From Candidatus Brockarchaeota archaeon (lineage in GTDB: Archaea > Thermoproteota > EX4484-205 > JAAOZO01), in contig JAFNIV010000018.1 of the NCBI GenBank assembly GCA_017601145.1, positions 1 through 33,533 of the forward strand: DNA of 33,533 nucleotides, read 5' to 3'. A program made the translations under genes and the position numbers. Shown here piece after piece: positions 2,931 through 17,316 of the stretch (positions within the stretch are counted from its first letter, which is position 1; each line of letters opens with the position of its first letter). A model generated the notes under the pieces. The model made no database searches. It was not told where the DNA came from and saw nothing but the letters and a program-made list of their open reading frames with translations.

Positions 2931-2957
2931 AGTATAAGTAAGTATTTAAGTTTTTCT
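2931..2957 (-). promoter_or_regulatory. Promoter of the 2900-2037 operon
   Basis: The minus strand reads AAAAACTTAAATACTTAC followed by TTATAC. This is the same extended motif used throughout the right arm, including the ACTTAC/TTATAC part downstream of the TATA box. It overlaps the TAA of the upstream gene (2946-2948). Confidence 0.65.
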
Positions 2958-5570
2958 CTTCTTTGATAAGTACCATAGGAGCCCTATTCCTGATAGTGCT
3001 AAAGCTCCTATTGCTAATGGAGCTGCTGGAGTTGGTGCAGGAGTTGGAGTTGGAGTAGGACTTGGAGCATATACTGGTATAGGAGCATATGGTGTTGGAG
3101 TAGGAACAGGAATGTACAAATCTAAGGTTTGTGTAATACCTGGAGTGACTGTAATTGAACCACTAGCTTCTTGGTTATTGTAGCTTGCAGTTATGAAGAA
3201 AGTCCTCTCTTCTCCAACGGCAACGTCCAAAGAGTAGGCTCCATTTGAATCAGTTGTTGTTATCCAATATCCGATGTGTTCAGTTCTAGCAATTATTTCT
3301 GCTCCTGATACTGGTGCTCCACCATAGTAAACATGACCAATAATTCGTGCTACATTCGGTGCAGGAGGTGGCGTTGGAGTAGGAGTAGGAGTATATACTG
3401 ATGGTGTAGGAGCATACGGTACAGGCGTAGGTGTTGCTGTGGGTGTTGGCGTTGGTGTAACAGTTGGCATAGGAGTTGGTGTAGGAGCGTAAGGTACAGG
3501 TGTTGGCGTTGGAGTTACTGTTACCGCAGGAGTAGGACTTGGAGTAGGAGTAATTGCCCAAAGTAGCGTTATGTTTCTGTTTGTGAAGTCAAAGTTGAAT
3601 TCTTGATAATACTGATTTGGAGCTAGTCCAGCTTTGTTTACTAATGATTCGTTTACATAAACGTCTAGAACTCCTCTTTGAGCTTTAGTGTATAAAACAA
3701 TGTTTGCATTCCCGTTGCTATCTGTTGTCCACATTGGTGCGCCTACAATTTCTTTTTTCCATGTCATGTAGGACTGAGCTAAAGCAACTGATGGAGGTAG
3801 TGTACCAAAGAAATATTTGTATGCGTCTGTGTAACTAGCGCGGGAAGGAGCAAATACATCACCAACCAAAGGTCTGAAGTAATCTACTACCAGTACTACA
3901 GCTGCCCCTTCAATTGGTTTTCCGGATGCATCTGCAACATGAATAGTAAACTCGTACTTCTTTCCTCCTGATGAATAGAAGTCGTTTATCTGTTTTTGAA
4001 GGTCTGCATACTTTTCATTCTCAAGCTTACTTAAGATGTCTTTTAAGCATTTTTCCAAGAAGTTTTCAGTCTGCACAAACTGTTCAAGGTTTGAACCTTG
4101 GAAAGGAGTTAATGAGCCGTTGCTCTCAAATGCATCTATAACGCCATCAAGGTTTTTTTCATCGTTTGAGAACGGTCTGTCGTAATTTATCATAGTCTTC
4201 AGATATGTTTCCATTCCTATACGTGCGAACTGAAAATAATAGTTGTAAATTATGAAGATGCCAGGATAATCTCCACGTGACCTAATTGCAGCATTAAAGT
4301 CTTTCTCTACTGTAAGATTTAAGATTGTAGACTGTTCATTGCTGTCCAAGTAGTTCCAATACGTTGGTATTGCTTCATCCAAACCTATGTTGTAGAATAA
4401 GTAGTCAATCTTGTTTTTTGTATCTAAGAAAACTTCTCCATCTTTCTTTATCTTCTCAAGCTTTTGAACTAATTCATTGTACTTTGCTTCCATATTTGTA
4501 ACGTAGTCTTCGATAGCCTTCATAGAGTTGATTTTATCTTGGAAGTATTTAACATCAGAATAGGAATAACGGTCATCCCAGTAATCCATTGGCTCAAAGT
4601 CAGTTGGAGAATACTGAGAAGACAAACCTTTTGAGATAAGGAAATTCAGTCTATCTTTGAATTTTCCAGAATTGTAGAAATTTACAGCATCGTTGTAACT
4701 TTTCTTTGCATTAACTAATTCTAAAACTTGGTCTCGACTTATCCTCGTCTTTACTGTAGTGTTGGGGTCTTTGTAGAATTCTGCCTCTCCAGTTTCATAT
4801 ATGAGAACATGGTCTATTTCTTCTGGTTGTCTAATTAGCACTATTTCCCCACTCCGGTAGTACCAGGGTATACTAGGTATCTCAATATAAGGAAGGAATC
4901 CTTCTTTTTCTATTTTTAATGTGTGGGTTGTGTTTTCAATGTTTGCAGCTATTACAGCCCTTCCATTGTTGTCTGAATATGCCACCCATTTGTCGTCTAA
5001 TGTTACTTTGGCTCCTGGTATTGGGTTACCCTGTACATCCTTAATTACTATGTCTACTCCTCCTATAACTTGTGCGGCGAATTCTGTTACTGGAGTCAAA
5101 AGCGTTGGTGCTGTAGGCGTTGGCGTAGGGGTAGGAGTTGGTGTTGGAGTTGGAGTAGGAGTAGGACTTGGTGTAGGAGCATATGGTACAGGCGTAGGTG
5201 CATATACTGATGGAGTTGGTGTAGGTGTAGGAGTAGGACTTGGTGTAGGAGTAGGTGTAGGTTTAGGTGTAGGTGTAGGAGTAGGTGTTGGCGTTGGAGT
5301 AGGAGTAGGAGTAGGAGTAGGAACTATAACCGATATAGTTATCCTCTTTGTTACTATTCCTAAGTCTCCCTCTGCAGCTAGAACGTAGGTTGTTGACTCT
5401 GTTGGCGTAACTTTCATACTTCCTACAGGTTGAACTTGAGTTCCGTTTACTGTTACATAGTATGGATTTCCAGATACAGACCATGACAAAGTTACTGTTT
5501 GTCCCTTGGTTATTGTTGTACTACTCGCCATAAAGTAGTTTATTATTGGATTACTGTAGATGTAGCTCAT
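2946..5570 (-). CDS. Large Thr/Pro-stalked, C-terminally anchored surface protein, 874 aa
   Basis: Probable virion surface spike or adhesin. Domain order: an Ig-like domain (about 1-82, with VTLSWSV and TTYVLAA); a Thr-Pro stalk (about 83-157, mainly TP dipeptides); a carboxypeptidase-regulatory-like/PEGA-like beta domain (about 165-235); a long mostly helical region (about 250-545); a second beta domain (about 550-680); a second TP stalk (about 690-760); a third beta domain (about 765-835) closely like one in the upstream 525-aa protein; and a C-terminal transmembrane helix (about 850-868) followed by SKKRKT. No N-terminal signal peptide is visible. The start overlaps the upstream stop by 4 bp (ATGA). 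The stalks look mucin-like and are likely glycosylated, given the nearby glycosyltransferase. Confidence 0.8.
3360..3560. repeat. Hexanucleotide minisatellite encoding the second Thr-Pro stalk
   Basis: Degenerate GGAGTA/GGTGTA-type six-base units encode Thr-Pro dipeptides on the minus strand, interrupted by VPYAPTP units. A shorter stretch of the same kind lies at about 3020-3110. Confidence 0.8.
5108..5330. repeat. Hexanucleotide minisatellite encoding the first Thr-Pro stalk
   Basis: About 220 bp of degenerate GGWGTW six-base units encode an almost pure Thr-Pro stalk on the minus strand. The DNA repetition makes slippage and stalk-length variation likely. Confidence 0.85.
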
Positions 5571-7144
5571 TTCTTCTCACCCGTTACTACAGTTATCTTA
5601 GTTTCAGGCTTACTTATAATCTTATACCCTACAAACAAAGCTCCTGCTACCCCAATCGCTGCCCAATACTGCCATGGAATTCCAAGGGGTGGGCTTGGCA
5701 GAGAAACTCCAAAGATTATGTCCTTCTTCAGTGTATCACCAGGGTTTAAGCTTATGTCTTCGCTATAAGAGTAGTCTTTGTAAGTTGCTTCTAGCTTAAA
5801 ACCTGTAGGTAATATTCCTGTACTCCATGAAACCTTTATGCTATAGTTTCCATTGCTATCTGTAGTTGCTGAATAGCTTACTATTGGTAAAACCTGATAA
5901 ACTGTAACTTTAACATTAGCTCCTTGAACTGGTGTCTTCGTTATGTCAATTGTTTCAAGTACGCTTGGTAGTTTACTTAAGTAAACAGTTCCATATACTA
6001 CAGCACTATATTCTCCAATTTGTTGTTCTGAAAGCACGAGAAGGATTGTTCCTAGGTCAAAAGTTTGGTTTGCCATAACTTTTGCTAATGCGTTGTAGTC
6101 ATTGTACTTGTCCTTTGATACAACTACAAAGTAGGTTGTTCCAGAGGATGATGCTGGAACTTCAATGTTGAAGCTTCCACTACTATCTGTAGTTGAACTA
6201 ACTGCACTTAAAGATAGTGCTTCTGTTGCAGTTACCTTAGCCCCTTCTACTGGAGCCTTGGAGTAATAATCTAAGACTACACCTTTTATGTAGCCTTTCG
6301 TTGGTATTGGAGGTGGAGTTGGAGAAGGTGTAGGCGTAGGAGCAGCAGGAATGTACAAATCTAGGGTTTTATAAACTCCAGGGGAGAGTATAGCTGAACT
6401 ACTTATTTCTTGGTTGTTATATTTTGCAGTTACGATGAAAATCGTGCCTTCTGTAGCATAAACATCCATAGAGTAGACTCCACTTGAATTAGTTGTTGTT
6501 TTCCAAGTTCCATATCCAGATGAAGCAATTACTTCTGCTCCCTGTACAGGTGTTCCTCCATAGTAAACTGTACCAGAAATTCGTGCATTGAGAGGAGGAG
6601 AAGGGGTAGGTGCAGGAGTAGGCGTAGGTGCAATCGGTGCATATGGAGGAGGAATTGGAGTTGTCGTAGGAGTAAGGTATGCATCAATACGCTGCATTAG
6701 TCCACTGTACACAGTTATGGTATACCTTACACCATTGTAATTTGGTGCACCATAAGTTACGTCGTAAGTTCCAGGGTCCATTTCTATATGGTAATATCCT
6801 TTGCTATCCGTGTAGGCTGTACCCCACCAACCATATGTTATCGTAACGTTGGCTATTGGTGCTCCTGTACTCGCATCAAAAACATAACCTTCAATACCAG
6901 TCGGACCAGAAAGTGATGCTGTTGGTGGTAGGAGCATAGTTATCTTTGTTGGTGCAGTTAAGCTTATAGTTACGCTCTTCGTTGTTGGGCTAGAAAATGT
7001 AACGTTGTAGCTTCCGTCTGGTACGTCAAGGTAAAAATAACCTGTAGTAGAGCTATTTTTTACGCTATACCCATCAGCAGTAATCGTACAGTTTGGAACT
7101 GGTATATTTGAATTTATATAGTATACGTACCCTTCTATTGCCAT
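5567..7144 (-). CDS. Multi-domain beta-sandwich surface protein with C-terminal anchor, 525 aa
   Basis: Five carboxypeptidase-regulatory-like (CarboxypepD_reg/PEGA-type) beta domains can be traced at about 1-75, 83-160, 188-270, 286-370 and 380-480. Typical marks are [19 protein letters not shown] and DLYIP. Pro/Thr-rich linkers separate domains 2-3 and 3-4. A transmembrane helix (about 488-508) precedes a short basic cytoplasmic tail. Domain 3 is paralogous to the third beta domain of the 874-aa protein encoded just downstream, so the two probably arose by duplication and act together on the virion or cell surface. There is no signal peptide and no GGTGA; the transcript probably starts just before the ATG. 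Confidence 0.8.
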
Positions 7145-7200: not shown

Positions 7201-8064
7201 TCAAGGAGGCTCTAAACCAAAAATCTTCCACCACATAGTATCTTTATACTTATATTCTGAAAGATAATACTCTCTCCATTCAAGCCAACTTTTGTCTGCT
7301 AAAACTTCGTCCATAATTTCTTTTGTAACTCCCTTAGACCTTAAAACCCAGTACAACCTCTGAAGGGTGTCATCGTCAAAGTCAAGTAAAGCTCCTATGT
7401 AGTAGTTCATGGCATAGAAGTGCATTGAATAGGAACCATAGGCTGCAACAGACTTAAAGTGATGCCCAACTTTTACTCTAGGCACAACAATGTTCTTGTA
7501 ACCTAACCTAAACATCCTAAGTGCAATTTCTCTATCTTCATACCCCCAATATGGTATATAACCAACTCCAAGTCCTAAGAACTTCTTTTTCTCTATTACA
7601 TGGAAGCATCCTACAGGTGCTTGAACTTCGTAGTATTCTCCTTTTTCAGGTGGTGGAGCACCCCACATGAATTCAAGTTCTTTGTTGCACATTGGAAAGT
7701 ATCCTACCTGTTCTTTATGCTTTACTCCATTTCCATCAACAACATATATTGCAGAGCTTACTATTCCAACATCCTTTTTTAGAGCGTAGTCTGTTACAAC
7801 TTCCCATCCTTCTTCAACCCAAACATGTGCATCCATGAAAACAAGGACTTCTCCAAGTGCATTTCTTGCCCCTATGTTTCTTGCCTCCCCAGCCTCGTAC
7901 TGTTTAGTATAGTAAAGTCTTGCTCCATAGTCTTTTATGTAATCATCTTTAAGAGATGAACTAACAACAATTATCTCATAGTCTCTTTTTGTATTTTCTT
8001 TTATTGACTTAACTGTATCAAGGAGGAATTTTTCTTCAAATGAAGGAATAATTATTGAAATCAT
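7201..8064 (-). CDS. GT2-family glycosyltransferase, polypeptide GalNAc-transferase-like, 287 aa
   Basis: A GT-A fold glycosyltransferase. The N-terminus has the family 2 start (MISIIIPSFEE). The nucleotide-sugar/metal site is D78-A-H80 (FMDAHVWVEEGW), a DxH variant like that of polypeptide GalNAc-transferases rather than the usual DxD. Later come WGYEDRE (173-179), the acceptor/catalytic ED motif, and HH at 201-202 in VGHHFK, also as in that group. No transmembrane segment is seen, so it should act in the cytoplasm. Its start overlaps the stop of the clan CD peptidase gene by 4 bp, and it is encoded next to two Thr/Pro-rich proteins that would be natural O-glycosylation substrates. The sugar and the acceptor are inferred, not shown. 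Confidence 0.85.
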   Translation of the reverse strand: MISIIIPSFEEKFLLDTVKSIKENTKRDYEIIVVSSSLKDDYIKDYGARLYYTKQYEAGEARNIGARNALGEVLVFMDAHVWVEEGWEVVTDYALKKDVGIVSSAIYVVDGNGVKHKEQVGYFPMCNKELEFMWGAPPPEKGEYYEVQAPVGCFHVIEKKKFLGLGVGYIPYWGYEDREIALRMFRLGYKNIVVPRVKVGHHFKSVAAYGSYSMHFYAMNYYIGALLDFDDDTLQRLYWVLRSKGVTKEIMDEVLADKSWLEWREYYLSEYKYKDTMWWKIFGLEPP

Positions 8065-8732
8065 TTTTTTAGTATTCCATAGAGTAGTAAAAGAGCAGGA
8101 GGAATAAAAATAACATAGGGCAAAATTTCTTCTATGCCTATCGTGCTGAGCTTTTGAGTTTCTACCCCACTAACATAAAAAATATTTGCATCGTAAAGTA
8201 ATGCTTCTGAAACTTCTTGGTCTGCATTGCTTGAATTTTTTATAAGTTCTTCTCTTACAACTAAGGCATCAGATATGTTGTTTGTTTCTTTTACTGCATC
8301 TATTCCTTTCATGAAAGGCTCTACAAACAAACTTAAAGTTTTATCTTCTAGTGCGTCCTTGCTTGGGTCATAGAATATGACATAATCTTTTAGAAAACCA
8401 GCCCCCTTTGCCCCTTTCTTCTCAAGGTATGGAATTAGGTCTTTTGCAACTTGACAAGAGAAGAACATAAAGTTTGTTCCTCCTATGTCATACGTAAATC
8501 CATCTTTTTCCATTCCAACCCAAAAAACTGGTTGCTCTTTATACCCTAGATAAACGTCATGGTCTCCATGTCCTACTGCAAAAACATTGTTTACCTTATC
8601 TTTGAACTTCTCCCATACTTTAGTTGTTACTTCTTCTCCTTCTATAAAAATTGAACTTTCTTTTAAACTTTCAAAATACTTTCCTATTCTCCCTATTATG
8701 TCTTCTCCGTCTGGTGATAGTACAATGCTCAA
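8061..8732 (-). CDS. Candidate clan CD (caspase/gingipain-like) cysteine peptidase, membrane-anchored, 223 aa
   Basis: A hydrophobic strand ends in AVGHGDHD (His55 in GHG). Later a second strand ends in FFSCQVAKDL (Cys93), followed by a helix and GAKGAGF. This His-Gly ... Cys order and the helix/GA-x-G tail match the catalytic core of clan CD peptidases (caspases, gingipains, legumain). The protein ends in a transmembrane helix (about 201-221) and KK. It sits between an 89-aa gene and the glycosyltransferase gene, overlapping both by 4 bp, so the three are one operon. It might process virion or host membrane proteins. The family assignment rests on motif reading only. Confidence 0.55.
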   Translation of the reverse strand: MSIVLSPDGEDIIGRIGKYFESLKESSIFIEGEEVTTKVWEKFKDKVNNVFAVGHGDHDVYLGYKEQPVFWVGMEKDGFTYDIGGTNFMFFSCQVAKDLIPYLEKKGAKGAGFLKDYVIFYDPSKDALEDKTLSLFVEPFMKGIDAVKETNNISDALVVREELIKNSSNADQEVSEALLYDANIFYVSGVETQKLSTIGIEEILPYVIFIPPALLLLYGILKK

Positions 8733-9286: not shown

Positions 9287-10888
9287 TCAAGAAATTGCAT
9301 ACAACATATAGAGCACAAAATTCCTTGAGAATACCATCCAATAGTCTGTATTCACTGCTCTAATTGCAATCGTTCCTTCAGTTATTACTTGCTCTCCTAT
9401 TCCAGATAAAAACAGTATTGCCCATCCTGAAGTGTCTGAGTATGAAACCACAATCATAGCTGTATATGAAGTTTCTCCACTCCTTGTCTTTGGAATTCCA
9501 AGCTTGCTTAGGTCTAAACTATAAACGTTTTCTATTTTAAATGCTTTCTTTATCTCTTCTAAGTTGAGCTTTCCAGTTGCAGGTTGTCCAACGTAAGGCA
9601 AAGGAATTGGTCTATTTATTATTTCCCCAACTTTTATTCCAAAAATTCTTATTTCTTTCTTTGTCCATTCTGAAAACTTTGCTGTTATTGGTGGAGGAGC
9701 TTGACCAATTACGTTTATGTTTTGAGATGTACTTGCAGGCTGGTAGTCTGCTGTTCCAGCATATGAAGCTTCTATCTTATGTATTCCAGGAGAACTTATA
9801 GACATACTTGTCCAGTATGCTCCATTGTTGTCTGTTGTTAAACTTACGTACTTATTTCCGTCTAAGTATATGTCTACTGTTGCGCCTACCAATGGATTCC
9901 AGGTTGCATAGAAGTATTCTAGTTTGCCCTGAACGTAGAAACTTTGGTTAGTATTAACTTCAGTAGGTGCATTCATGCTGAGCCTTGTTGGATAAGGCTT
10001 GCTTTCTTCATAAAGCCATACTGAGCTTCCAGAATCTCCGGGCGAAGAAATAGCTTCAGTTAATATTTGGTCAACAAAGGTTGCATCTCCTTGCGAATAA
10101 CCTCCTACTCTAACAACTGCACTTGTATCAAGAACTTTTCCTATAGTATAACCAGAAGTTCTTCCCCACTTCTGTACATAGTCTCCTACATTAACGTCTT
10201 GAACAGTAGCATTTATGGGAGAATAACCTAAGTCAGTTACATAGTGTTCTTTAAAGATTACAGTAACTGTATTGCTTCCAGCAAACAAGTGCCCTACAAT
10301 CTTAGTTGGGGTGTACTGTTGCCATATCTTGTAATCGCAATCTACGTCCATGCTTGCAACTGCAAAGTCTAAGTTGTTCGTCTTTCCGCTTGAAGTAGGA
10401 TAAAGTTGAACGTGGTTTACGTAGCTTCCTATCTTATCGTTTTTAGTTCCTCCATCGTAGCTTCCTGGTTGAACTATGTCTTTTGGAGATACATTGTTTG
10501 GAGGTTGCATGGGGTCTGGAGTAAAGACATGTGCATTTGAACCAAAGTACTTATTTCCATTCTTGTCAACGTAAAACCATCCAAGAGTTCCTGCAGTTAT
10601 GGCAATGTTTCCAACTGAAACTCCTGCAGTAACAGGTCTAACTTTTTGTGTTGGGTCAAAAAAAGCAACAATCTCCCCAACTTCTACAACATCAGTTTTT
10701 ATTCCATCAATCTCTTCTGGAATTATGTCCTCTTCCTTTAGTGCGAGCTTAAGCTCCTTTTTCTTCACGTAAACTCTTATTGCTTTTACCTCAGTTTCTT
10801 TTCCTTTTACAATCTTAGGCTTAAGCTCAGTACTGAAACCTACAACATTCTTCTTTTCAAGTAAGAACATCAACTTTTCTTTTTCCAT
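9287..10888 (-). CDS. Trypsin-like serine protease with prodomain-like N-terminus and Ig-like domain, 533 aa
   Basis: A PA-clan (chymotrypsin-fold) protease with all three catalytic residues visible: His120 in GSNAHVF, Asp174 in NNLDFAVA and Ser286 in SPGDSGSSVW. The N-terminal 75 residues (VVGFSTELK, AIRVYVKKKE, IDGIKTDVVEVG) match the region that precedes the protease domain in prokaryotic Nal1-like proteases. After the protease domain comes an Ig-like repeat (about 305-395: GATVDIYLDG, TTDNNGAYW). The C-terminal domain (about 400-533) is unassigned. ATG 10888 is preceded by GGTGA at 5 bp and beats the GTG at 10897. There is no signal peptide. It could mature virion proteins or cleave the host surface. 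Confidence 0.85.
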   Translation of the reverse strand: MEKEKLMFLLEKKNVVGFSTELKPKIVKGKETEVKAIRVYVKKKELKLALKEEDIIPEEIDGIKTDVVEVGEIVAFFDPTQKVRPVTAGVSVGNIAITAGTLGWFYVDKNGNKYFGSNAHVFTPDPMQPPNNVSPKDIVQPGSYDGGTKNDKIGSYVNHVQLYPTSSGKTNNLDFAVASMDVDCDYKIWQQYTPTKIVGHLFAGSNTVTVIFKEHYVTDLGYSPINATVQDVNVGDYVQKWGRTSGYTIGKVLDTSAVVRVGGYSQGDATFVDQILTEAISSPGDSGSSVWLYEESKPYPTRLSMNAPTEVNTNQSFYVQGKLEYFYATWNPLVGATVDIYLDGNKYVSLTTDNNGAYWTSMSISSPGIHKIEASYAGTADYQPASTSQNINVIGQAPPPITAKFSEWTKKEIRIFGIKVGEIINRPIPLPYVGQPATGKLNLEEIKKAFKIENVYSLDLSKLGIPKTRSGETSYTAMIVVSYSDTSGWAILFLSGIGEQVITEGTIAIRAVNTDYWMVFSRNFVLYMLYAIS

Positions 10889-10893
10889 TTTTA

Positions 10894-11259
10894 TCACCTT
10901 AGTTTGTACTCAAGGTATCCTAAGTTTGCAGCTAGTATAGTAGCAACAAGTGTTAAAACCTTCGTTGCAGTGTCGTAGTCTATTGCATGTACTAAGTAGG
11001 CAAGTCCACAGAGCAAACCAAATCCAAATACTGCAAGTTTTAAAGGATAATCTACTGCAAGAATTCCTTCAAGCTTCTGAATTTTTGAAAGTTCGTAAAT
11101 CTTAGACTGTGATGCATTGAGTGCAATGTAGTTAAATATTGCCATGAATACTACTAGAAAAACGTCTTTTTGTATTACTCCGAAAATGTATGCAAGCAAG
11201 CTTACTGCTAGAAGAAGGTCTGCTATTGCCTTTAGCTCCCACATAGGTCTATTGTTCAT
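10894..11259 (-). CDS. Multi-pass membrane protein, 121 aa
   Basis: Four hydrophobic segments are seen at about 9-28, 30-50, 72-90 and 97-113 (LLLAVSLLAYIFGVI, VFLVVFMAIFNYIAL, LAVFGFGLLCGLAYLV, VLTLVATILAANLGYL). It is the first gene of the unit that continues into the serine protease and the coiled-coil membrane protein; its stop codon is part of the ribosome-binding site of the protease. A holin-like or virion-membrane role is possible but not supported by any motif. Confidence 0.65.
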   Translation of the reverse strand: MNNRPMWELKAIADLLLAVSLLAYIFGVIQKDVFLVVFMAIFNYIALNASQSKIYELSKIQKLEGILAVDYPLKLAVFGFGLLCGLAYLVHAIDYDTATKVLTLVATILAANLGYLEYKLR

Positions 11260-11784: not shown

Positions 11785-11800
11785 CCAAATATTTAAGTTT
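11785..11800 (-). promoter_or_regulatory. Promoter of the 88-aa virion-type gene
   Basis: The minus strand reads AAACTTAAATATTTGG, overlapping the 3' end of the radical-SAM gene. Its distance fixes the leaderless start at 11767. Confidence 0.55.
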
Positions 11801-12977
11801 ACTCTTCCCCTATTCTTGAAATTCGTGAACCTAGGTTAAAAGCCCTTTTGAAGGCTTCATTGTTCTCTGAAAGCATCGCATGACCAAGGGGTAAGAAGAC
11901 TTCTGTAACTATCTGTAAGTATCTACATTCTGCTTCTGGCATCACGTTGTAGCTGTTGAACATATCATAGTTTTGTGCTAAGCATCCTCCATTGCAAATA
12001 TTCTTAACTATGCAAGTATCGCACATCTTTATGTTTTCGCTAACTATAGGAGCAAGCTGAAATCTCTTGTATATTCTGTAAACTTTTTCATAGTCTATTC
12101 CATTGAACACATCTCCAATCTTCATCTCTTCACTATTTACTAAACTGTTTGCTGTTCTATGACAAGTTGATATTTCTCCCTTTGGGTTTATACCTATGTC
12201 TGAAATACCAAAACCACATCTATCATACCTACTTCCTGCTCCAATTATGTAAGTTAATCCATCTCTCTCAGGCATTAAGTTTACTGGAATACCCTTTCTA
12301 TACCACGAGAACAAATAGTCTCTAAGTTTTTCCATTTCCTTCCTAAAGTCTTCATAGTCTTTCTCTTTCCATTCAACTTCAAAAACAGCTCCAAGGGCAA
12401 TATTATAAATGTTGTAATCTTCAACATACTTCTTTACTGCATCTGCGAGCCCAACAATTGTACCTGGTGCAAAAGTCCATCTTACCTGAAATTCTTTCCC
12501 AAAAATTTTCTTTGCCTTATTGTAGTTCTCAAAAACTTTGTCCCATGTTCCCCTTCCATCCTTTGTTACCCTAAACTTGTCATGCTGTTCCTTTAGTCCG
12601 TCTATGCTTACTAGAAAGCCAAACCTCTTTTCTGTTCTTTCTGCAAGGTATTTCAGTTTTTCTTCATCAAGCAAATACATGTTTGTTGTCATTCCTAAGT
12701 TAAACTTTAGTTTTTGTCTCCTAACTTCTTCTACAAAAAACTTAATTATATTCCAAGCAACTGAAGGCTCTCCTCCGAAGAACCATATGCTTCCGTCTTC
12801 TCTTACATACTTTTTCGCAAACTCCAACGTTGCTGAAGCAACTTCTTCTGTCATAGTTCCATACTTGTATGAGTAGAACTTTAGGAAACAGTAAGAACAG
12901 TTGAAGTTACAGTCATACGTTGGGAGAACAGTTATTCCAACAAGTTTTCTTTTCTTTATTTCTTCTAAGCTTAACAT
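11799..12977 (-). CDS. Radical SAM/SPASM peptide-modifying enzyme, 392 aa
   Basis: The radical-SAM cluster motif is C23-x3-C27-x2-C30 (CNFNCSYC), followed by GGEP (68-71), which helps bind SAM. The SPASM domain is complete: C254-x17-C272, then C319-x2-C322-x5-C328-x3-C332 and a final C351, seven cysteines able to hold two auxiliary 4Fe-4S clusters. This is the architecture of sulfatase-maturating and peptide-modifying (sactipeptide/ranthipeptide-type) enzymes. ATG 12977 directly follows the TAA of the 86-aa Cys protein (12979). TTG 12986 is the alternative. The three Cys-triplet proteins encoded just upstream are the obvious candidate substrates; that pairing is inference from position. Confidence 0.93.
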   Translation of the reverse strand: MLSLEEIKKRKLVGITVLPTYDCNFNCSYCFLKFYSYKYGTMTEEVASATLEFAKKYVREDGSIWFFGGEPSVAWNIIKFFVEEVRRQKLKFNLGMTTNMYLLDEEKLKYLAERTEKRFGFLVSIDGLKEQHDKFRVTKDGRGTWDKVFENYNKAKKIFGKEFQVRWTFAPGTIVGLADAVKKYVEDYNIYNIALGAVFEVEWKEKDYEDFRKEMEKLRDYLFSWYRKGIPVNLMPERDGLTYIIGAGSRYDRCGFGISDIGINPKGEISTCHRTANSLVNSEEMKIGDVFNGIDYEKVYRIYKRFQLAPIVSENIKMCDTCIVKNICNGGCLAQNYDMFNSYNVMPEAECRYLQIVTEVFLPLGHAMLSENNEAFKRAFNLGSRISRIGEE

Positions 12978-12978
12978 T

Positions 12979-13239
12979 TTACTCAAACTTCTTTTTTTCA
13001 GGTTTCCAGCCTAACTCAACGAGTGCTTCTCTTATTCCTTCTCTCACAGCTTCTCTTATCATTTCCTTAAGTTGCATGTCAGTTATGTCTATGCTTGGTT
13101 GTCTAACTTTAAACACTGGTTTTATTGGGGTTGCGGAAGTTTTTTCTTGTCTCTGGGCTCCGTAGTTTACCTCGCATTCTATGCATATTCCGCACATCTT
13201 TTCGCATTCTACGCATACTTGACATTCTTCACAACTCAT
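12979..13239 (-). CDS. Cys-triplet N-terminus plus helical C-terminus, 86 aa; candidate substrate or carrier
   Basis: Seven cysteines lie at residues 3, 6, 9, 12, 16, 19 and 22: a CxxC ladder with one four-residue slip, the same rhythm as in the next two proteins. Residues about 25-50 are a linker, and residues about 50-75 form an amphipathic helix (MQLKEMIREAVREGIREAL) ending in a charged tail. The gene has its own TATA box about 25 bp upstream (leaderless) and is directly coupled to the radical-SAM gene. It may be a carrier, a recognition partner or a substrate, or it may hold metal. No family was recognised. Confidence 0.8.
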   Translation of the reverse strand: MSCEECQVCVECEKMCGICIECEVNYGAQRQEKTSATPIKPVFKVRQPSIDITDMQLKEMIREAVREGIREALVELGWKPEKKKFE

Positions 13240-13257
13240 GAGTTTTACTTTGTTTTT

Positions 13258-13270
13258 GAATATTTAAACG
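13258..13270 (-). promoter_or_regulatory. Promoter of the 86-aa Cys protein and radical-SAM gene
   Basis: The minus strand reads CGTTTAAATATTC, centred about 25 bp before the ATG at 13239, so this pair is transcribed as a separate leaderless unit just after the stop of the 104-aa Cys protein. Confidence 0.6.
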
Positions 13271-13271
13271 T

Positions 13272-13586
13272 TTATACGTACGCAGCTGCTTGGCATGTAT
13301 TGCAAATTTGACAAGCATCGCAAACCTGACAAGCATTACAAATCTGGCAACTATAGCACGAAGTTACACAAGTATTGCAAGCTTGGCAGCTATTGCATGA
13401 ATAGCATTTTGCATAACACTGTTGGCATGCAAAGCAAACTTGACAACTATAGCACGAAGTTACACAAGTATTGCAAGCTTGGCAGCTATTGCAAACCTGG
13501 CATGTGTTGCAGTTTTGGCAAGTATTGCAACTTTGGCAAGAGTAACATACTTGACAGCTTCTGCATATTCTTATGTTTATGCTCAT
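13272..13586 (-). CDS. Cysteine-ladder protein 1, 104 aa (30 Cys)
   Basis: After MSINIRI the sequence is an unbroken run of Cys-x-x triplets: 30 cysteines, spaced by three residues except at three places (VTS, YAK, VTS) where the spacing is four. The first residue after Cys is mostly Gln, Asn or Tyr; the second is mostly small (Ser, Thr, Ala, Val). The tail is AAAYV. ATG 13586 has an excellent GGAGGTGAG site, so the longer reading from 13640 is not used. The run could form a metal- or disulfide-rich rod, or be cross-linked by the neighbouring radical-SAM enzyme. It is not similar to any family I know. Confidence 0.85.
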   Translation of the reverse strand: MSINIRICRSCQVCYSCQSCNTCQNCNTCQVCNSCQACNTCVTSCYSCQVCFACQQCYAKCYSCNSCQACNTCVTSCYSCQICNACQVCDACQICNTCQAAAYV

Positions 13587-13880
13587 TTTCTCACCTCCTA
13601 TATTGAATAAACATAGTAGCAAATCTGACAAGTATTGCAATTATAGCAAGTATTGCATTTTTGGCAAGCATTGCAAGAATAGCAACTTGCATTACACTGT
13701 TGACAAGTATTGCAAACTTGACAAGTATAACACGAAGCTACACATGTAACGCAATTATAGCAAGTATTGCAAATATAGCAACCTGCGTTACACTGTTGGC
13801 ATGTATTGCAAACTTGACAGCTATTGCATGAATAACAAGTATTGCAACCTTGACAAGAGTAACAAGTATCACAACTCTCA
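13290..13880. repeat. Nine-base tandem repeat tract encoding the Cys ladders
   Basis: On the plus strand, units such as CAAGTATTG, CAAACTTGG and CAACTATAG recur every nine bases across both ladder genes. On the minus strand each unit encodes one Cys-x-x triplet. Longer blocks (for example 13351-13391 and 13451-13491) are almost identical, pointing to internal duplication. Confidence 0.85.
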
Positions 13881-13939
13881 CATTCTACGTCTCTTATGTT
13901 GTTCGTTTTTGTTGCAGATATTCTTATGTTTATACTCAT
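13598..13939 (-). CDS. Cysteine-ladder protein 2, 113 aa (29 Cys)
   Basis: It begins with the same MSINIRI as ladder protein 1, followed by a 12-residue spacer, then 29 cysteines in Cys-x-x triplets with three four-residue slips (NAG, VAS, NAS), and ends in YYVYSI. Between the cysteines are mainly Asn, Gln, Tyr, Ser, Thr and Val. There is no His-rich or acidic cluster typical of a classic metallothionein. The start overlaps the stop of the 70-aa gene by 4 bp (ATGA), so it is translationally coupled to the fibre-protein operon. It is probably a virion or surface component and candidate substrate of the radical-SAM enzyme. Confidence 0.85.
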   Translation of the reverse strand: MSINIRISATKTNNIRDVECESCDTCYSCQGCNTCYSCNSCQVCNTCQQCNAGCYICNTCYNCVTCVASCYTCQVCNTCQQCNASCYSCNACQKCNTCYNCNTCQICYYVYSI

Positions 13940-14148
13940 GTCTCTATGACTTCACCTTTTGTTTCTTCCTTCTTCATCGTTTTTTCAATTTCTTTAAGGA
14001 TTTCTGTAGCTTTCTTTCTTCTTTCTTCTTCTGTCGGGAATTTCTTAAACTCTACTGCAAACCTTATGTTTGTTCCTTCTATTATGTAATGGAATCTGTA
14101 AACCTTCTTTTCTTCGTCGTATTCTTCTAGGAAAAGGAAAGCTCTCAT
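13936..14148 (-). CDS. Hypothetical protein, 70 aa
   Basis: A small protein with an N-terminal beta-rich part (FLFLEEYDEEKKVYRFHYII, then RFAVEF) and a charged C-terminal helix (EERRKKATEILKEIEKTMKK). It lies between the DDHPQYL fibre gene and the ladder genes: its ATG follows the fibre stop by one base, and its stop overlaps the start of ladder protein 2. It could be a chaperone or adaptor for either neighbour. No family was recognised. Confidence 0.6.
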   Translation of the reverse strand: MRAFLFLEEYDEEKKVYRFHYIIEGTNIRFAVEFKKFPTEEERRKKATEILKEIEKTMKKEETKGEVIET

Positions 14149-14149
14149 C

Positions 14150-15418
14150 TTAGCTCACATCCACATAGATTTCTATTGTCCTGTTATAAGTATAGTAGCT
14201 TCCGCTGTTTACTAGTCTTATGCTTACTGTATGAACTGCAGAGGAACTCCAGTTTACTGAAACACTTCCAGTATACAAACTATAAGAAGTTGAAGAAATA
14301 CTCCAAACACTTACAGAACTTGCTCCATCTATACTAACCTTTAAGTTTCCAGTTCCTCCAGTTACGTATGCTTCTCCAACAAAGTATAAGTTCTTTATGT
14401 TGTTGAACCCATAACCTGGTGCATTTATTATTCTAAGAGTCTTTATCTCAGTCTCTGTAGTTCCATACACACTCTTCTCTGTTTCATCTCCAGCATAGAG
14501 AAACCTTAAGTCAGACCAATGATGAGAATCTAACTTGTCTACATCTAATCCTCCTCCACTTCCCCATGGAAGTGCATCTGCTCCTCCAGCTAAGTGTCTA
14601 CTACTATGAGAGTCTACGTTTATAGTTCCAATAGGTACTCTGCTTATGCTTGTTCCATCTGGTGAGAAGCTTAATAATGCAAGGTCTGTTCTTAACCATA
14701 TTCTTCCCTTTACAAGTGAAGTAGGGTCAGAAGTTAAGTTTTCAACAGCTAAGTTTACAAACTGGTATCCGTTTGCGTTGAAGTTCCCACTAAGTGCTCT
14801 TGTTCCATCTGTTCTTAAGTATTGTGGATGGTCGTCTGAAGTTAAGTTACTTAAGTTTGAATGTGAGTCATGAGGTACAACAGTTCCAAGAGTGTGTCTT
14901 GTAGTTGTGTCATGTCTAGTTATGTTTAAGTATTGCGGATGGTCATCTGAAGATAAGTTAAGTAATGCACTATGACTTATAACATTCTGTGCTCTACCCA
15001 TCTCAACCCAAGCTGAACCATTGTCGTAGTAAAGTATGCTCGTATCTGTTGCAAAGTATAGTCTACCTGTACTTCCAGCAGCTGGTTTGCTTGCATCTGT
15101 TCCAGCTTGAACAAGTATAAGCCCTCTATGGTCTGTTGAGCTGTGTCTAGTTGAGTTTAAGTACTGTGGATGGTCATCTGAAGACAAACCGTTTAGGTTT
15201 GCATGGAGAATCTTCTTTCCTGTTCCTCCAGCTGACTGTGGTAAGCCATTGTGGTCATGTCCATAGACGTCGCTTGTGATTGCATCTACTAAGTCATTGT
15301 GGTCTGAAGCTTGTACAATGTCTCCAGGGTTTACGTACCTTAAAGGATAAGAAACATCTTCTGTTTTTGTATTTCCGGCGTACCTTATTTGATTTTTTTC
15401 AGTTCTTTCTCTTTTCAT
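14150..15418 (-). CDS. Tail-fibre-like protein with DDHPQYL repeats, 422 aa
   Basis: Three copies of an L-S/T-S-DDHPQYL motif occur, each spaced by His-containing segments (NSTRHSSTDH, NITRHDTTTRH). This motif is known from tail-fibre and spike proteins of tailed phages, where histidines can hold metal along a trimeric fibre. In between are SGNFNANGYQFVNLA and RLYFATDTSILYYDNGSAW, also typical fibre modules. The C-terminal 110 residues are a beta-rich head (TGGTGNLKVSIDG, YTYNRTIEIYVDVS). ATG 15418 is the leaderless distance (about 28 bp) from the TATA box; ATG 15433 is too close. It is likely a receptor-binding fibre. Confidence 0.8.
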   Translation of the reverse strand: MKRERTEKNQIRYAGNTKTEDVSYPLRYVNPGDIVQASDHNDLVDAITSDVYGHDHNGLPQSAGGTGKKILHANLNGLSSDDHPQYLNSTRHSSTDHRGLILVQAGTDASKPAAGSTGRLYFATDTSILYYDNGSAWVEMGRAQNVISHSALLNLSSDDHPQYLNITRHDTTTRHTLGTVVPHDSHSNLSNLTSDDHPQYLRTDGTRALSGNFNANGYQFVNLAVENLTSDPTSLVKGRIWLRTDLALLSFSPDGTSISRVPIGTINVDSHSSRHLAGGADALPWGSGGGLDVDKLDSHHWSDLRFLYAGDETEKSVYGTTETEIKTLRIINAPGYGFNNIKNLYFVGEAYVTGGTGNLKVSIDGASSVSVWSISSTSYSLYTGSVSVNWSSSAVHTVSIRLVNSGSYYTYNRTIEIYVDVS

Positions 15419-15440
15419 CGTATTTTCATGCATAGAACTA

Positions 15441-15454: not shown

Positions 15455-16828
15455 TTACCTTTTGTCCTCGTGTTCCTTTGGAAATCTCTGCTGTCTTCCA
15501 CCTCTGTATGAATACTTATCGTAACCGTAGACTGCACTTCCGTAAGTTGCTCCTGTAATCTTTCCCATTTCTATTGTTCTCTCCCCTCTTGATGTGTACT
15601 TTGATACACCGTAGGTTGCAAGTCCATACCTTGCTGCTCCAATGTTTTTGCTTATTGGGTATACTCTATCTTTTAAACTAATAGTATCCGTAAGTAACTT
15701 TGTAACTGCTTTTTTTACACTATCGCTTAAACTAACAGTATCTGTAAGTATTCTTCCTACTATCTTGCTATCTTTTAGACTAACAGTATCTGAAAGTGTC
15801 TTTCCAGCAAATTTTATCGTGCAATCACAAATTTTTACTGTATCCACAAGTGTAAGTGGTTGAATTTCTGTTGCCCCCCAAGCTCCATGAGTTGGCTCTG
15901 GTTCTACATATTTTCTTATTCTAATAACGTCTTGCCATCCTTGTCCCTTATCAGAATTTCCACAACTGAAGCCTATATATTTTACTTCTGAAATACTAGG
16001 GGAATAAGGTCCATAAGTTCCTTCATCTGTAACGCCATTGTATATCCAATTAAATTTTAACTGTGAAGAGGATAAAACTAAAATACGTAGAAAATGCCAG
16101 TAGTTATAATCATAGTTGTCTATTCCTAAACCTGTTATCAGACTGCCACCAGTTACGTAAAATTCGGGTTTGTATCTGCCTGCATCATCTCTTCTTGTGA
16201 ATAAGTCCATTCCTGTTGAACCATTAGATTGGAAAAATTCATAAAACATGTACCCGTCACTATAAGTTGCATTAGTATTTCTCTCCCAAACTTCAATTGC
16301 GAATGGAGCTGGAATTGCACTAGGTAGTGTTTTTTGAGCTTTTGTATAAGGTAATGAATTAACTCCAAATAGTTTGTGGCTGTAAGTTCCTTGTTTCACA
16401 GTTGTAGTGTCAACAGTATTTGTTCCATATCCTTGTACTACTGTCCAGTCAATTCCACTTTCAAAATCGTCATAATATAGAAATGTGTTTGCGCCGCTGC
16501 TTGCACTAGTTGCATTTGGATTTCCAAAGTACAAATATATTGTTGAGCTTGCAGAACTTAGGTCGTCAGTTATCTTAACCCAGAATGTTGCCACACTTGA
16601 AGCTGTTACACTCTCTGTCCAATAAGGTAGTAAAGTTACTCCATCGCTTGCAGTAAAGCGCACATCAGAAAAATCAGTTTTACATCTTGAGTTTAAGTAC
16701 ACTGTATTATCGCTGTCAGTTCCACTTCCATAGTATGCAATTATCTTAACCTGATAGCCTGTTCCTGCTCCAGGTGCAGAGTTGATGACGTGCGACTTTC
16801 TGTACATCCAGCCTTGAAGCCAACCCAT
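15455..16828 (-). CDS. DUF2341-domain spike protein with DTVSLSD repeats, 457 aa
   Basis: Residues about 1-110 are a DUF2341 domain: WMYRKSHVI, CKTDFSDVRFT, LLPYWTES, FWVKITD and IYLYFGN are all in the expected order. Residues about 115-320 are a lectin/concanavalin-like beta region (FYYDDFESG onward). Residues about 335-395 hold four degenerate repeats of the form LTDTVSLSDSV, one of them with Cys-Asp-Cys. The C-terminus has two YG-x-A-x-YG-x-x-KY repeats. The ATG at 16828 follows the upstream stop (16840) closely. DUF2341 is found in secreted archaeal and viral surface proteins, so this is probably a spike or adhesin. Confidence 0.8.
   Translation of the reverse strand: MGWLQGWMYRKSHVINSAPGAGTGYQVKIIAYYGSGTDSDNTVYLNSRCKTDFSDVRFTASDGVTLLPYWTESVTASSVATFWVKITDDLSSASSTIYLYFGNPNATSASSGANTFLYYDDFESGIDWTVVQGYGTNTVDTTTVKQGTYSHKLFGVNSLPYTKAQKTLPSAIPAPFAIEVWERNTNATYSDGYMFYEFFQSNGSTGMDLFTRRDDAGRYKPEFYVTGGSLITGLGIDNYDYNYWHFLRILVLSSSQLKFNWIYNGVTDEGTYGPYSPSISEVKYIGFSCGNSDKGQGWQDVIRIRKYVEPEPTHGAWGATEIQPLTLVDTVKICDCTIKFAGKTLSDTVSLKDSKIVGRILTDTVSLSDSVKKAVTKLLTDTISLKDRVYPISKNIGAARYGLATYGVSKYTSRGERTIEMGKITGATYGSAVYGYDKYSYRGGRQQRFPKEHEDKR
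15650..15850. repeat. Tandem repeats encoding LTDTVSLSD units
   Basis: Four copies of a roughly 50-60 bp degenerate unit containing AAACTAACAGTATCTG-like sequence lie inside the DUF2341 gene and encode the DTVSLSD repeats. Confidence 0.7.
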
Positions 16829-16839
16829 GGCTCAAACCT

Positions 16840-17316
16840 CTAGCTAAATACTAGTTTTGAAATTATCGTTATTGTGTCTCCAGCAACCACGTTTATTGCT
16901 CCAAAAGTATTTCTTATGAACATAGTTCCTCCTGAAGATGCATTAAATACACCCATCTCAGTTATTGCATAGCTTGCTGTAAAACTAAAGTTTCCTTGAA
17001 GCTGTAGTGTGTCGTTTGTTGTGTTCGTTGTGACTAAAGAGTTTGATGTTTGCACTCTTAAAACCTCGCTTCCTAATGCTGTATCAGAAATTGAAGGTGA
17101 AGTTGTTCCTGTTCCTACAGCCATGTAGCTTGCAGTTCCAGTAGCTAATCCTCCAACTAAACCTGCAATCTGTGCCTTTCCAACTGCTACTACAAGGTCT
17201 TCAACTTTTCTTTCTTCTATTAGCTTTCCATTTCTATAGTGTTTTATTATTGTAATGTCTCTTATACTAACTTTGTCTTCTATTTTTTCCTTTTCCTTTT
17301 CCTTTTTTTTCTCCAT
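16840..17316 (-). CDS. Phage tail-type beta-domain protein, 158 aa
   Basis: A charged Lys/Glu-rich N-terminus (1-18) is followed by a domain with phage-tail features: ASYMAVGTGTTSPSISDTALGSE, then NFSFTASYAITEMGVFNASSGGTMFIRN and a final DTITIISKLVF strand. This AVGTGT ... ITE-x-G-x-FN-x-SGG signature is common in tail-associated virion proteins of phages. The start at 17316 is leaderless from a TATA box at 17335-17346. It is probably cotranscribed with the DUF2341 spike gene, with 11 bp between them. Confidence 0.75.
   Translation of the reverse strand: MEKKKEKEKEKIEDKVSIRDITIIKHYRNGKLIEERKVEDLVVAVGKAQIAGLVGGLATGTASYMAVGTGTTSPSISDTALGSEVLRVQTSNSLVTTNTTNDTLQLQGNFSFTASYAITEMGVFNASSGGTMFIRNTFGAINVVAGDTITIISKLVFS

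Follow-up and report, generated by a model that had tools for sequence, protein, structure and literature searches.

Cysteine-ladder proteins and an adjacent radical-SAM/SPASM enzyme: a candidate protein-maturation cassette in viral tail modules

What does a radical-SAM enzyme do beside two proteins in which almost every third residue is a cysteine? This question is raised by a minus-strand operon in a stretch of 33,533 nucleotides (hereafter the window), one contig (C9) from an archaeal bin of 1.62 Mb. Open reading frame (ORF) calls place the genes, in transcription order, as a fibre-like gene, a 70-aa gene, ladder 1, ladder 2, the gene for a 7-Cys protein, and the enzyme gene (Table 1). The window also encodes an archaeal Hjc resolvase, a pRN-type regulator, and tail-fibre-type proteins, which together are consistent with an archaeal virus or provirus. 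The 70-aa protein gave just weak, sub-threshold matches against Pfam. Elsewhere in the window, two large proteins with (PT)n linkers, carboxypeptidase-regulatory-like repeats and a terminal membrane segment (2946-5570 and 5567-7144) are probable adhesins, and a protein with a GHGD...FFSCQ pattern (8061-8732) is reminiscent of caspase-like peptidases and has a weak homologue in a related virus, L407 (E = 8e-5). A possible trypsin-like protease with an Ig-like domain (9287-10897, GDSGSSVW) is encoded a few genes downstream of the cassette.

Table 1. Genes of the cassette and its flank in the window.
Product	Coordinates	Strand	Remarks
Radical-SAM/SPASM enzyme, proposed ladder maturase	11799..12986	-	395 aa; 8-base overlap with the end of the 7-Cys gene
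7-Cys protein, proposed ladder-enzyme adaptor	12979..13239	-	86 aa; short ladder, linker, amphipathic C-terminal helix
Ladder protein 2	13272..13586	-	104 aa, 30 Cys; orthologue L165:9851-10015 (MSNIRTC...)
Ladder protein 1	13598..13939	-	113 aa, 29 Cys; orthologue L165:10038-10244, N-termini agree
70-aa protein between the fibre gene and ladder 1	13936..14148	-	Overlaps the start of ladder 1
Fibre-like protein	14150..15433	-	427 aa; C-terminal domain, aa 312-426
DUF2341 protein, probable fibre or adhesin component	15455..16828	-	Pfam PF10102, 73.7 bits
Tail-fibre-type protein	16840..17316	-	phrog_5417, tail fibre families; homologue in L407

The ladder rhythm, the 7-Cys protein, the complete set of SPASM cysteines, and the gene order had all been claimed in the original prediction, and all were confirmed from the ORFs. 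Cysteines are spaced by exactly three in 25 of the 28 steps of ladder 1 and 26 of the 29 steps of ladder 2, whereas in 20,000 permutations of each protein's residues such spacings averaged about 4 and peaked at 12 and 13. Both ladders consist of a long run of threes, three +1 shifts, and seven threes at the end; in both (window 13272-13939), single +1 register shifts lie exactly 16 residues apart (4,3,3,3,3) and may mark the turn of a fold. The repeat units read C-[N/Q/Y]-[T/S/V/A]. Ladder 1 opens with a leader-like N-terminus, MSINIRISATKTNNIRDVEC, followed by C-[NQY]-[TSV] units, and ladder 2 has a short one, MSINIRIC, its ATG start lying behind GGAGGTGA. Since codons for Cys and the repeat units are mixed (TGC/TGT, AAT/AAC, CAA/CAG), the pattern is maintained in the protein and does not reflect a DNA satellite. 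Neither ladder matched a Pfam, NCBIfam, or PHROG model, which bears out the prediction of a pattern without a described family; at the level of sequence models, at least, the ladders appear to belong to none. A sequence search of solved structures with a ladder and with a ladder-tailed baseplate protein from another virus (L413) gave no match, and the AlphaFold2 prediction for ladder 1 failed (pLDDT 29).

The enzyme carries the SAM-cluster motif CxxxCxxC (C26/C30/C33) and belongs to the radical-SAM superfamily by its Pfam match (PF04055, 65.7 bits, cut-off 29.5). All seven auxiliary SPASM cysteines are present (C257, C275, C322-x2-C325-x5-C331-x3-C335, C354), and the Pfam SPASM model (PF13186) scored 18.0 bits, below its gathering score of 21.5. 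The full SPASM set is not universal, since the enzyme of a related virus (L398) is without most of these cysteines, yet the ladders are retained there. Against NCBIfam, the enzyme missed every curated equivalog cut-off: the best curated model was PapB (NF047865, 197.1 bits, cut-off 340), followed by the SCIFF maturase (TIGR03974, 133.7 bits, cut-off 425), QhpD-type (TIGR03906, 117 bits, cut-off 453), CXXX-repeat (TIGR04115, 104.6 bits, cut-off 350), and CefB (NF038107, 91.5 bits, cut-off 600) models. The nearest solved structure, and the sole PDB match at threshold, was CteB (5wgg, E = 2e-29).

How far do these known systems resemble the cassette? SCIFF ranthipeptides, matured by CteB, likewise place a Cys-rich target beside a radical-SAM/SPASM thioether former; however, the SCIFF targets are short peptides, containing about six Cys, and CteB has an N-terminal RRE, whereas the window enzyme begins at the radical-SAM domain. 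A SCIFF-type peptide was sought in the locus and none was found. PapB is a ranthipeptide maturase, but its known target motif, CX3D/E, differs from the ladder motif. QhpD installs its thioether links in a structural protein and not in a peptide, although its substrate and gene context differ from those of the ladder cassette. The CXXX-repeat and CefB (Cys at every fifth residue) systems have targets with Cys at fixed spacing; theirs is 4 or 5, that of the ladders 3. Lastly, phrog_1802, a family of radical SAM domain-containing phage proteins, includes a homologue from the tail module of an Achromobacter phage, but the PHROG entry carries neither an annotated function nor a link to Cys ladders.

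Next, we investigated whether enzyme and ladders occur together elsewhere, selecting genomes on the enzyme only and never on the ladder. Among 300 genomes of the phylum, the enzyme query gave four matches better than 1e-40 outside the window, each with ladder proteins directly upstream; four weaker matches (~1e-19 to 1e-22) had no ladders beside them. A six-enzyme profile, applied to one family and one order, recovered Cys chains of 15-50 adjoining all nine loci above 550 bits, four of which were already in the profile and eight of which belong to a single clade, so that the nine do not count as independent events; ladders were found at none of the 17 loci below 190 bits. On a tree of 63 enzymes, the ladder label changed 9 times compared with about 21 times in shuffles, and 0 of 500 shuffles were as clustered. 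A phylum-wide search for the ladder pattern was discarded as a source of relatives because its output was mostly repeat noise.

The closest relative, IMGVR_UViG_3300044273_000101 (L165/L231), was located by a CQxC pattern scan for ladders; viral contigs searched with the window enzyme as a single protein yielded nothing. This contig encodes a tape-measure protein, and its genes run from a fibre C-terminal domain (40% identical to that of the window over 116 aa) through a 68-aa ladder and a 55-aa ladder to a 410-aa enzyme. By their N-termini, the 68-aa ladder pairs with ladder 1 (MSQNVREYATETPNLKDRVC vs MSINIRISATKTNNIRDVEC) and the 55-aa ladder with ladder 2 (MSNIRTC vs MSINIRIC). The N-terminus of this enzyme is itself a 7-Cys ladder, MSYCEKCYTCQACVSCEKVGCQVCFTCE. 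One of the four phylum-wide matches better than 1e-40 lies in G210 (L398/L407), where the contig also encodes a long tape-measure-like protein and homologues of the window's fibre and tail proteins; here a fibre domain is followed by two ladders and then by an enzyme to which a Cys segment is fused. Thus, the window, L165/L231, and L407 share one gene order (fibre domain, two ladders, Cys segment, enzyme), and by tblastn all three viruses have the fibre C-terminal domain upstream of their ladders. The structural model of this domain is beta-rich (pLDDT 64) and resembles TNF/C1q-like lectin and phage spike folds. Two neighbours of the cassette, the fibre C-terminal domain and the phrog_5417-type protein, are conserved, which together with the L231 tape-measure protein places the cassette in a tail/fibre module; small proteins akin to the phrog_5417-type protein also lie near the enzyme in other ladder phages. 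The predicted viral context is borne out by these fibre and tail neighbours and by relatives on contigs with tape-measure proteins.

The 7-Cys protein (Cys spacings 3,3,3,4,3,3) may show how the enzyme meets its proposed substrate. Its ladder part is fused to the N-terminus of the enzyme in L165 and L398, and this fusion, together with the strong co-occurrence described above, upholds the predicted pairing of enzyme and ladders. A second clue comes from eight apparently chromosomal loci of one archaeal family (f5: L404, L405, L406, L426-L430), each with a large Cys protein, a small helix protein or segment, and a radical-SAM enzyme. Their Cys proteins are larger than those of the window (~290-600 aa, 31-63 Cys), and their enzymes form one clade with those of the window and L165 (SH-aLRT 99), all ladder-linked. 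The f5 relatives appear to sit among chromosomal genes, one locus adjoining what read as PurL/PurQ-like genes; hence the system is not only viral. Glycosyltransferase-like genes were seen near the cassettes in L405 and L406. Between the Cys protein and the enzyme, all eight loci encode a short amphipathic helix (consensus ~E-x-R-V-K-E-x-V-x-E-T-L-I-E-L-x-L), which forms a small protein of its own in six loci and ends the Cys protein in the other two. The C-terminal helix of the 7-Cys protein bears a weak likeness to this adaptor helix (rank 8 of 2519 ORFs, E = 6.4; alone, E = 0.0024), a likeness to the cellular adaptors that is only suggestive. The 7-Cys protein may combine, as a chimera, the ladder segment found enzyme-fused in L165 and L398 with the helix of the cellular systems, and as an enzyme-docking adaptor it would hold the enzyme on the ladders.

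Does the pairing extend to more distant viruses? The enzyme profile detected 15 further viral contigs, ten of which have Cys chains of 11-22 at a spacing of 3-4 residues, mostly four (CxxxC). In L413 and L422, the ladder is a C-terminal extension of a Pfam Tail_P2_I baseplate protein, and the ladder proteins of L410, L418, and L419 have N-termini similar to this type. Downstream of the enzyme, several of these viruses encode glycosyltransferases and small tail-type proteins. An independent version of the pairing is found in prophages whose gene content points to Bacillota hosts (L082, L150, L155, L157, L167, L170, L171, L197, L206, L209, L212, L215): CQTCQGCQSCQTC-type ladders lie beside one or two enzymes, inside a tail-fibre module wherever the flank is long enough. 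The ladder pattern, the operon, its conserved gene order, the co-occurrence, and the fusion are thus observed, and a tail-module context recurs in several virus groups. The predicted hot, possibly acidic habitat finds no support, given these prophages and the archaeal host 16S, whose core region and surroundings have a G+C of ~59%, a value that does not point to a hyperthermophile. Enzyme matches from human-gut phages (H1, H3, H5, H7), which resemble SCIFF clusters, were left out. We also noted a CNCDCNC motif and a Hint-like segment in L276:4682-6124 (Achromobacter phage 2-1) and L082:1958-2368 (Bacillota prophages), in or beside phage tail proteins and adjoining a radical-SAM gene; the Pfam Hint_2 match in L082 fell just under the cut-off. 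A 633-aa phage protein with 90 Cys (L158:2616-4517) lies beside a radical-SAM gene and fibre-like proteins.

A ladder of this kind might be a metallothionein- or Fe-S-like scaffold, held by metal or disulfides and otherwise unmodified, with the enzyme acting on another neighbour or on the 7-Cys segment only. CxxC is a metal-binding motif, and many phages carry CxxC ladders without the enzyme: in a set of 50 viral loci whose CxxC ladders vary, no radical-SAM gene was detected for 47 in the fetched stretch, some stretches being short. Period-three Cys alone therefore does not imply the enzyme. Homologous ladders regularly found without the gene had been named in advance as evidence against the prediction; ~47 viral CxxC loci go part of the way towards this, but many are cut short, and they share with the enzyme-linked ladders a CxxC pattern rather than demonstrated homology. 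Moreover, the two sets differ in composition. Enzyme-linked ladders favour Q/N/Y then T/S/V/A/G after each Cys, whereas in enzyme-less ladders the first position favours residues such as S, T, R, and K, and the one preceding the next Cys is preferentially D, N, G, S, or Y. Given this difference, and because the enzyme tracks ladders across viruses and chromosomes, we regard a metal or disulfide scaffold as improbable. The enzyme-less ladders constitute a widespread unnamed phage class, long and often of the form C-x-[DNGS]-C (L036, L061, L070, L085, L107, L152, L188, L190, L315, and others), with the radical-SAM gene undetected in the locus; some members have an N-terminal WVDxxNNxW segment, and four members searched against Pfam matched no model. 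Generic (Cxx)10 pattern searches saturate, dominated by this class and by low-complexity DNA.

If the ladders are substrates, which modification would they receive? CteA is reported to carry a CteB-made link between Cys32 and Thr34, and in quinohemoprotein amine dehydrogenase QhpD joins Cys to Asp/Glu (PMC8326336). The Cys(i)-Thr/Ser(i+2) spacing of the C-N-T and C-Y-S ladder units equals that of Cys32-Thr34. As the nearest models and structure are thioether formers and Thr/Ser stands at i+2 as in CteA, thioether formation, which the original prediction had put forward and which is plausible here, is probably the likeliest chemistry. The ladders do not define the acceptor residue: x1 and x2 vary, and some related ladders have Gly there. 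Other radical chemistry is conceivable, namely epimerisation, for which the reviewed PoyD/EpeE epimerases are a precedent (PMC8326336), conversion of Cys to formylglycine, or C-C cross-links. All of these occur among radical-SAM/SPASM enzymes, NCBIfam sulfatase maturase and cyclophane models also match the enzyme, and the homologue in an Achromobacter phage bears the annotation of an anaerobic sulfatase-maturating enzyme. By contrast, the residue conserved in the ladders is Cys, the top-scoring models describe thioether-forming enzymes, and the ladders lack the CxPxR motif of the sulfatase type; hence we consider non-thioether chemistry unlikely.

The location of the product can be narrowed in a similar manner. 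The original prediction envisaged a rod or coat for the virion; a structural role is kept here, and the likely site becomes a tail, fibre, or baseplate element, as the fibre-domain neighbour and the ladder extensions on baseplate proteins elsewhere would place the ladders in the tail/fibre apparatus. A precursor gene beside a radical-SAM gene is also the typical layout of RiPPs, and the ladder N-termini are leader-like, so the ladders could instead be secreted or cleaved into an antimicrobial or superinfection-exclusion peptide carried by the virus. We think this very doubtful, since neither an exporter nor a leader protease was recognised directly beside the cassette, and the ladders lie in tail modules, in several phages as C-terminal extensions of Tail_P2_I-type baseplate proteins.

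Collectively, we favour, with moderate confidence, a virus-borne protein-maturation cassette. Both ladder proteins would be substrates of the adjacent enzyme, which would form thioether bonds from ladder Cys to carbons of nearby residues, and the product would be a stiff, reduction-resistant segment within the tail/fibre apparatus, the simplest role that we can infer for the ladders. The broader proposition, that archaeal and bacterial viruses use radical-SAM enzymes of their own to cross-link Cys ladders of tail, baseplate, and fibre proteins in a previously undescribed form of covalent virion maturation with a cellular archaeal counterpart, seems to us evenly poised. The full-text literature searched, whose coverage largely excludes subscription papers and preprints, held no description of radical-SAM modification of phage tail Cys ladders. 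If the proposition is true, radical-made thioether cross-links would join isopeptide chain-mail and disulfides as stabilisers of virions, and radical-SAM enzymes would be seen to act on large structural proteins that contain between 20 and more than 100 Cys. It would also explain the phrog_1802 radical-SAM proteins of some phages, and would provide a cassette that recurs and can be tested directly in phages and prophages accessible to the laboratory.
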